Shown in pieces: positions 17,440-18,767 of a DNA stretch of 64,000 bases (positions are counted from its first letter, which is position 1; every line of letters starts with the position of its first letter). Position numbers and translations under genes: made by a program. The notes under the pieces are model-generated. The model saw nothing but the letters and a program-made list of their open reading frames with translations, did no database searches and was not told where the DNA came from. This stretch comes from Ruminococcaceae bacterium R-25 (lineage in GTDB: Bacteria; Bacillota; Clostridia; Saccharofermentanales; Saccharofermentanaceae): NCBI GenBank assembly GCA_003149065.1, contig QGFZ01000002.1, forward strand, positions 744,001-808,000. The letters are read 5' to 3'.

Positions 17440-18570
17440 TCAGATATACGTTCCGAGATAAGCGAATTCAGTAGGCTCAGCGTCGAGCTCGCAAAGGAGG
17501 GCAATGACTTCTTCTGAATAAACTGAAGCTTCGAAATCAAGATAGAACATGAATTCGAAATCCTTTCCCGCGATAGGACGTGATTCGATCTTCGTAAGGT
17601 TCAGACCCAGTGAAGAGAACTTGGCAAGTGTATCTGCAAGTGCGCCCGGTGTGTGGCCCAGAGCGAGCATTACTGAAGTCTTGGATGCACCTGGGAAGAT
17701 CATGAGCTCTTTTGTGATGCAGATGAATCTTGTGTAGTTGTTGTCTGTGTTCTGGATATCGTCTCTTACAGCTTCCAAGCCATAAAGCTGCTGGCAGTCT
17801 GAAGATGAGATCGCAGCAACGTCCTTGCGTCCGGAGTCAGCAACGCTCTTTGCTGCAACTGCAGTGTTTTCAACGATGTTTACCTTGATATCCGGATGCT
17901 CTTTGAGGAACTGGCTGCACTGGCCTATTGCCTGGTTATGAGAGTAAACCTCGCGGATATCGTCAAACCTTGTTCCGTGATTTGCGAGGAGCTTGTGGCT
18001 GATCCTTAATTTGTAGTCTTTTACGATATGGAATTTGTGGTCGACCATGAGGTCATAGACCTGTGTGACTGAACCGAATGAACTGTTTTCGATAGGGAGG
18101 ATGCCGAACTTGCAAAGACCGGATTCAACTGCCTGGAAAACGCCGTCGAAAGTTCTGAAATACATGATGTTTGCGTGATGGAAGATCTTGTCTGTGGCGA
18201 TCTGTGAGTAAGCGCCTTCAATACCCTGGCAGGCTACCATAGGTGCTTTGGGAAGTTCCATGGGAGTGGTCTCGAGGGCCTTTTTGATCTGGTCTGCGAG
18301 CTCGGTCCTTGTTCCATACTCGGTATTCCTGTAGGAGTGGCTTAAGTTAAACATTGTGGAGAAAAGAACGCGCTCGTAGTTATCAATAAGCTGATCTGAT
18401 GTCTCAAGTCCTGCAAGATAGCTTCTCTCATAGCGTCTGCTCTTAAGAGCGATCTCAGACTTCGTCAACGTCTCGTTTGCCATCTTGCTCGCTTCCAATC
18501 GTTCCTTGAAGAGCTCCTTGATCTGTTCATCGATCTCTTCAATTCGTTTTCCGGCCTGTTTCTGTGTCAT
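17440..18570 (-). CDS. pheA: bifunctional chorismate mutase / prephenate dehydratase
   Basis: 376 aa. The cytoplasmic P-protein of phenylalanine synthesis: chorismate to prephenate to phenylpyruvate. Residues 1-90 are an AroQ-type chorismate mutase helix bundle (RIEEIDEQIKELFKERLEAS). Residues about 95-270 are the prephenate dehydratase domain (GIEGAYSQIA, LPIENSSFGSV, NYTRFICI holding the catalytic Thr of TRF). Residues 285-376 are an ACT domain with GALADTLAKF and the Phe-binding ESRP motif. The start is set at 18570 by AGGAGG; upstream codons belong to the attenuator hairpin. Control by a Phe-rich leader peptide is visible directly upstream. Confidence 0.95.
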   Translation of the reverse strand: MTQKQAGKRIEEIDEQIKELFKERLEASKMANETLTKSEIALKSRRYERSYLAGLETSDQLIDNYERVLFSTMFNLSHSYRNTEYGTRTELADQIKKALETTPMELPKAPMVACQGIEGAYSQIATDKIFHHANIMYFRTFDGVFQAVESGLCKFGILPIENSSFGSVTQVYDLMVDHKFHIVKDYKLRISHKLLANHGTRFDDIREVYSHNQAIGQCSQFLKEHPDIKVNIVENTAVAAKSVADSGRKDVAAISSSDCQQLYGLEAVRDDIQNTDNNYTRFICITKELMIFPGASKTSVMLALGHTPGALADTLAKFSSLGLNLTKIESRPIAGKDFEFMFYLDFEASVYSEEVIALLCELDAEPTEFAYLGTYI

Positions 18571-18590
18571 GTTTCTTTCCTCCTGACAAA

Positions 18591-18623
18591 TTAAAAGCCC
18601 CACAGTCTTGTTCACTGCGGGGC
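18591..18623 (-). terminator. pheA attenuator terminator
   Basis: On the minus strand GCCCCGCAGT pairs with ACTGTGGGGC (10-bp arms at 18623-18614 and 18606-18597), followed by TTTTAA. The 5' arm includes GCAGTGAA (18618-18611), which is also complementary to TTCACTGC at 18667-18660. The two pairings exclude each other, giving terminator or antiterminator. Confidence 0.9.
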
Positions 18624-18667
18624 CCTATAATATACGTAAATCAAGTTATTTATTTACATGCAGTGAA

Positions 18668-18733
18668 CTAATTACCCCTATTCGTAAAGGCAAAAAATGA
18701 AAAGTCACGCCATGTAAATGCAAAATTAGTCAT
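18668..18733 (-). CDS. pheL: pheA leader peptide (Phe-rich)
   Basis: A 21-codon frame with six Phe codons, including TTT TCA TTT TTT GCC TTT, ending 1 nt before the antiterminator arm at 18667. This is the layout of a classical amino-acid attenuator: when charged tRNA-Phe is scarce the ribosome stalls on the Phe codons, the TTCACTGC arm pairs with the terminator arm, and pheA is read. The ATG is only 6 nt downstream of the -10 box and has no Shine-Dalgarno, so the peptide would be translated from a leaderless 5' end. Confidence 0.8.
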   Translation of the reverse strand: MTNFAFTWRDFSFFAFTNRGN

Positions 18734-18739
18734 GTGGCA

Positions 18740-18767
18740 ATTATATACCACATTCGGAGAATGTAAA
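18740..18767 (-). promoter_or_regulatory. pheA promoter
   Basis: On the minus strand TTTACA (18767-18762), a 16-nt spacer and a perfect TATAAT (18745-18740). The expected start point coincides with the A of the leader peptide ATG at 18733. Confidence 0.8.

Follow-up and report, generated by a model that had tools for sequence, protein, structure and literature searches.

The region upstream of pheA

The window analyzed here is a stretch of 64,000 nucleotides from the genome of Ruminococcaceae bacterium R-25, and the locus of interest is the minus-strand gene pheA with the sequence ahead of it (Table 1). Assignment of the pheA product is based on domain matches to PF00800 (E value of 4e-58) and PRK10622 (E value of 9e-55); a match to the PRK11898 prephenate dehydratase (E value of 2e-63) falls just below the family cutoff. 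A preliminary description of this DNA had placed upstream of the gene a promoter, an antiterminator and a terminator, together with a leader of 21 codons, six of them for Phe, and had read these elements as a Phe attenuator. All four elements were recovered in our analysis, to which we now add a pairing between segments 1 and 2 and a predicted leaderless start.

The promoter is strong, with 11 of 12 consensus matches in its two hexamers and a 16-nt spacer between them. The Phe residues of the leader peptide occupy codons 4, 6, 11, 13, 14, and 16. Segment 1 reads ATTTACATG..GTGA (18719 to 18705, leader codons 5 to 10) and is paired in the predicted fold with TCAC..CATGTAAAT of segment 2, whose first base is also the final base of the stop codon of the leader; the sequence after the stop is TTCACTGCATGTAAAT (18667 to 18652). 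The antiterminator is formed by TTCACTGC (18667 to 18660), which is complementary to GCAGTGAA (18618 to 18611), and segment 3 overlaps the 5' arm and the loop of the terminator. Pairing of 1:2 plus 3:4 is the terminating arrangement and pairing of 2:3 the antiterminating one, and the addition of segment 1 to segments 2 to 4 completes the four-segment design known from enteric bacteria. The region folds at -48.5 kcal/mol, compared with -27.5 +/- 3.6 kcal/mol for dinucleotide shuffles (z score of -5.8; 0 of 200 shuffles were as stable). The mean terminator energy across 57 loci is -21.4 kcal/mol, and the T tract in the source genome is short (TTTTAATTTG).

Table 1. Features of the pheA upstream region, in window coordinates
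Feature	Position	Strand	Remarks
-35 element TTTACA	18762..18767	minus	From sequence; TTTACA or TTGCAA-like among relatives
-10 element TATAAT	18740..18745	minus	From sequence; nearly invariant in the genus alignment
Leader peptide ORF MTNFAFTWRDFSFFAFTNRGN*	18668..18733	minus	21 sense codons, stop TAG, six Phe
Segment 1 ATTTACATGGCGTGA	18705..18719	minus	Inside the leader ORF; base-paired to segment 2 in the predicted fold; covariation
Segment 2 GTTCACTGCATGTAAAT	18652..18668	minus	Pairs with segment 1 or 3
Segment 3 GCAGTGAAC	18610..18618	minus	Antiterminator 3' arm; complementary to segment 2 over 9 bp
Intrinsic terminator (segments 3:4)	18594..18626	minus	13 pairs, 7-nt loop; T-rich tail to ~18588
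Shine-Dalgarno sequence AGGAGG of pheA	18579..18584	minus	From sequence
pheA, bifunctional chorismate mutase/prephenate dehydratase	17440..18570	minus	ATG at 18570

Conservation and covariation across the genus

Upstream regions of pheA were taken from the family, and 73 of these loci belong to the Saccharofermentans-like genus of the source genome; relatives with 93 to 98% PheA identity are mostly rumen or gut Saccharofermentans/Ruminococcaceae genomes (Clostridia, Bacillota). A Phe-rich leader with 5 to 10 Phe codons lies at the same place ahead of pheA in 62 of the 73 loci. The peptides range from that of the source genome via MRNFWFTSFDFTFFALTKSE to MNRKSFTSFDFFFGFGFFTRSE and MTRKNFTGFEFFRSFAFFFMNTRSGFIA, and Phe accounts for 390 of 1,180 leader codons (33%) in 57 loci. 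The Phe codons are retained in all clades, and the other codons vary. In most loci the leader stop codon lies 1 to 5 nt ahead of a TCACT core. The remaining 11 genus loci have pheA without a Phe leader (L056, L059 to L062, L069, and L073 to L077); a search of 20 loci lacking the leader, from genus members and outgroup genera, found no Rfam elements, T-boxes included.

Covariation was scored on 35 distinct aligned sequences. In helices 1:2 and 3:4, 12 pairs had two-sided changes, compared with a shuffled mean of 6.5 (reached in 0 of 500 shuffles), and in helix 2:3, 97.5% of cells were paired, with 20 two-sided cells against a shuffled mean of 8.7 (0 of 500); these shuffles ignore relatedness, and the structure itself came from one of the aligned sequences. 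The terminator helix 3:4 had 92.6% of cells paired and seven pairs with two-sided changes. Controls with slid partners, which keep relatedness, were far lower, and the signal was lost in them. For clades C, E, F, and G, column-wise covariation is clearer than a swap test of segment 1 against segment 2 between clades. The alignment indicates that all three helices (1:2, 2:3, and 3:4) are kept by compensatory changes, and conservation across ~60 species rules out chance. The Phe attenuator interpretation thus gains the two kinds of comparative evidence that the preliminary description had proposed to look for, namely Phe codons that persist in relatives and stems that both show compensatory change, and where the element is kept, neither the codons nor the alternative pairing has been lost.

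A very probably leaderless leader transcript

Transcription usually starts ~7 nt after the -10 box, and the RNA is therefore expected to begin on the leader ATG or immediately beside it. Because this ATG (first base at 18733) lies 6 nt past TATAAT and is not preceded by a Shine-Dalgarno sequence, the pheA leader transcript is very probably leaderless, with a start predicted on the A of the ATG or on a neighboring base. Among 60 loci, the distance from the -10 element to the leader ATG is 6 nt in 34, 7 nt in 17, 8 nt in 3, 9 nt in 4, and 10 nt in 2, so that it is 6 to 8 nt in 54 of 60, as expected of leaderless mRNAs; several loci with a longer distance have a second in-frame ATG just upstream. 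A Shine-Dalgarno-like motif precedes the leader ATG in only 1 of 57 loci, compared with 56 of 57 for the pheA start codon.

It is conceivable that the attenuator is the same but its transcript is not leaderless, with transcription starting further upstream, or the leader starting at the in-frame GTG at 18751, and the leader translated from a 5' untranslated region devoid of a Shine-Dalgarno sequence. Such a GTG is indeed present, and the transcription start is a predicted one. However, TATAAT sits between this GTG and the ATG, neither codon is preceded by a Shine-Dalgarno sequence, and it is the -10 element, the -35 element and the spacing that are conserved genus-wide, whereas the sequence further upstream is not; we therefore regard this possibility as unlikely and retain the leaderless start.

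The source genome contains 111 occurrences of TATAAT-N5..7-ATG, compared with 70 of the reversed pattern. The frame is open for at least 60 codons at 26 of 40 TATAAT-N6-ATG sites but at only 11 of 55 N5 or N7 sites (Fisher P value of 1.4e-5), and this excess suggests that the genome uses leaderless-type starts elsewhere. Leaderless genes are thus seemingly common in this genome (G000, loci L176 to L265), which is unusual for Clostridia: a study of C. difficile identified only 15 potentially leaderless genes (PMC7438776), and in Firmicutes such genes have been reported mainly from Lactobacillales and Mycoplasma (PMC3160421). Among the ~90 TATAAT-N5..7-ATG sites of the source genome that were read, no other amino-acid-rich leader was found.

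Predicted switching by ribosome position

The switch was modeled by ensemble folding of each leader, before segment 4 is made, with a masked ribosome footprint that was assumed to cover ~15 nt upstream and 13 nt downstream. Across 57 loci, the mean probability of 2:3 pairing was 0.56 in naked RNA. A ribosome stalled at a Phe codon raised it to 0.86, and one at the stop codon lowered it to 0.01; with the ribosome at the stop, the probability of 3:4 pairing in the complete RNA was 0.95. A switch by ribosome position was predicted for 56 of the 57 loci. The value for naked RNA implies that 1:2 pairing is strong only in some clades; in others it is predicted to be weak, and the naked RNA already favors 2:3. 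Basal termination without leader translation may, on this model, vary between clades.

Taken together, we consider it highly likely that the element is a ribosome-mediated transcription attenuator that senses the supply of Phe-tRNA-Phe for pheA, with its leader translated from a leaderless transcript. RNA polymerase would initiate on the A of the leader ATG or immediately beside it; a ribosome would load on the 5' end of the RNA. When charged tRNA-Phe is scarce, the ribosome would stall on the Phe codons and cover segment 1, allowing 2:3 pairing, which would block the terminator and let pheA be transcribed. When Phe is plentiful, the ribosome would reach the stop codon that abuts segment 2 and cover this segment, so that 3:4 pairs and transcription stops. 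In an untranslated leader, 1:2 pairing would tend to free segment 3 for the terminator. The anatomy, the conserved Phe codons, the covariation, the spacing of the -10 element and ATG, and the mutually exclusive folds are shown by the loci and their predicted structures. From these we infer where transcription starts, that the leader is translated, and that the element responds to Phe. Points that speak against the model are the short T tract, the weak 1:2 pairing in some clades and the lack of the leader at 11 of the 73 loci.

Distribution and a re-coded copy ahead of glmS

A covariance model of the element was built from 22 leaders. At a threshold of an E value of <=0.01, it matched 63 of 188 genomes of the order, all within one of 30 genera, a distribution that suggests an innovation at the level of the genus. 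In a sample of 391 genomes covering the class, it matched 13, ten of them in the genus of the source genome. Two of the three matches outside the genus (among L333 to L335) were rejected as GC-rich terminators without a leader, and the third, L332, is a different leader with a Shine-Dalgarno sequence, discussed below. Upstream regions of ~36 more distant pheA loci were read, and no convincing Phe leader was found in them.

In nine genomes the covariance model detects a second element, homologous and likewise apparently leaderless, ahead of glmS, at 57 to 69 bits (sequences L277 to L284 and L287, the first ~270 bases in coding orientation, and L294 to L302); wherever the second frame was read in these genomes, purF follows glmS. 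The copy has TTTACA, TAAAAT, 6 nt and an ATG, followed by a conserved peptide of the form MK[IM]IWFISY[AE]YAL...; 3' of the peptide lies TATTCACTGC and then a GGTCCC.. terminator with GCAGTGAATA. This peptide can be aligned with the pheA leader of the same clade (MRNFWFTSFDF..), with most Phe residues changed to Tyr, Ile or Ala. No such leader was found before glmS in the other genus members that were read. It could be, and we offer this tentatively as a scenario that we hold to be rather more doubtful than probable, that the leaderless scaffold arose in the genus, became the Phe sensor of pheA beside the T-box of pheS, and in one clade was later duplicated to glmS-purF, where its Phe codons were replaced and the resulting leader-peptide switch put amino-sugar and purine synthesis under the control of a new input. 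Judging from the glmS copy, attenuator modules of this kind may be transferred to another gene and have their codons changed there.

This re-coded copy, with its few Phe codons, also bears on the specificity of the element, since the scaffold is apparently able to work without a run of Phe codons. The pheA element might accordingly be a general sensor of translation or coupling that responds to any slowing of the ribosome and not to Phe alone. Against this, the target is a gene of the Phe pathway and every clade has preserved the Phe codons of its leader as other codons diverged, which makes this explanation very improbable and argues for an attenuator that senses Phe.

T-boxes in the source genome

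The source genome contains five T-boxes (RF00230), which on translation and alignment lie ahead of trpE, trpD, pheS, aspS, and an XRE/AMP-ligase gene. The trpE and trpD T-boxes have UGG at the specifier position. In the pheS T-box the specifier, in the register read here, is apparently UUC or UUU, both of them Phe codons. Two tRNA-Phe sensors thus apparently coexist in one genome, a T-box on pheS and a leader attenuator on pheA. In the T-box before aspS (L005, 1501 to 1693), the specifier, read from the alignment, is seemingly AAC (Asn) and not an Asp codon; an Asn specifier would suit a nondiscriminating aspartyl-tRNA synthetase. The fifth T-box (L003, 1501 to 1744, minus strand) has a possible AUC (Ile) specifier, and the protein encoded downstream, with helix-turn-helix, cupin-like and AMP-ligase-like parts, is an unusual target.

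At pheA itself, no T-box was found at the gathering score or at E values up to 10, and the enterobacterial Phe_leader family of Rfam likewise gave no match to the leader at either setting. The sole Rfam family with a full-length weak match was the trpB motif, which was dropped at 27 bits against a cutoff of 59. Control of pheA by a T-box or some other RNA sensor, with the short open reading frame present by coincidence, is hardly credible, given this lack of a T-box match at any threshold and the conserved leader and switch geometry, even though Bacillota usually rely on T-boxes and five of them, including that of pheS, occur in this genome.

Comparison with known systems

Leader-peptide attenuation of a Phe gene is textbook knowledge in E. 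coli, and classical leader-peptide attenuators are proteobacterial and actinobacterial. In Bacillota, such control is usually exerted by tRNA-sensing T-boxes, and to our knowledge, Phe attenuation by ribosome stalling has rarely been described there. The clostridial element resembles the enteric pheA attenuator (pheL; Rfam Phe_leader) in its Phe-rich leader, in the mutually exclusive 1:2/3:4 and 2:3 pairings, and in its target gene. Unlike pheL, however, it is very probably leaderless rather than led by a Shine-Dalgarno sequence, has no Rfam match and resides in Clostridia; it is probably of independent origin.

In the open-licence literature, our searches turned up no pheA leader-peptide attenuator from Clostridia, leaderless or not. 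The remark in the preliminary description that an enteric-type attenuator is unexpected in Bacillota is fair, but examples do exist there. For hisZ and hisS* of bacilli, a His leader peptide has been predicted (PMC2965389); this is likewise classical attenuation in T-box-dominated Bacillota but concerns His instead of Phe and Bacilli instead of Clostridia. A second case is L332 (125 to 330), where we noticed a Phe/Tyr-rich leader, MSLFVFAAAYFYFYFIMTRSKSDLCCK*, and a terminator in another clostridial family, followed by genes whose translations read as DAHP synthase-like and prephenate-dehydrogenase-like. It shares with the pheA element an aromatic leader, a terminator and the class Clostridia but differs in its clear Shine-Dalgarno sequence (AAGGAG), its 5' untranslated region and its downstream gene, and is apparently an independent aromatic attenuator. 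The uORFC-13-1 motif upstream of aroF in Acholeplasma also combines a predicted upstream open reading frame containing Phe codons with a terminator before an aromatic-pathway gene; in contrast to the pheA leader, it is preceded by a ribosome binding site, its Phe codons number at least one, its target is aroF and its lineage is another (PMC8632094).

Leaderless leader peptides have precedents in trpL, leuL, and ilvL of Streptomyces (PMC8079986) and in trpL of Sinorhizobium meliloti (PMC7298713). There, as predicted here, the 5' end of the attenuator coincides with the leader ATG, but those leaders sense other amino acids and belong to other phyla. An apparently leaderless leader would have no Shine-Dalgarno step before the stall, and the pheA leader could thus serve as a natural test of leaderless initiation coupled to transcription termination. 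It offers a clear case of attenuation of the enteric type, deeply conserved and found in a class, Clostridia, that is dominated by T-boxes, and within one genome it would set two modes of tRNA-Phe sensing side by side, with the synthetase gene under a T-box and the biosynthetic gene under a stalling ribosome. The class of mechanism is known from the systems compared here; the combination of features is unusual.
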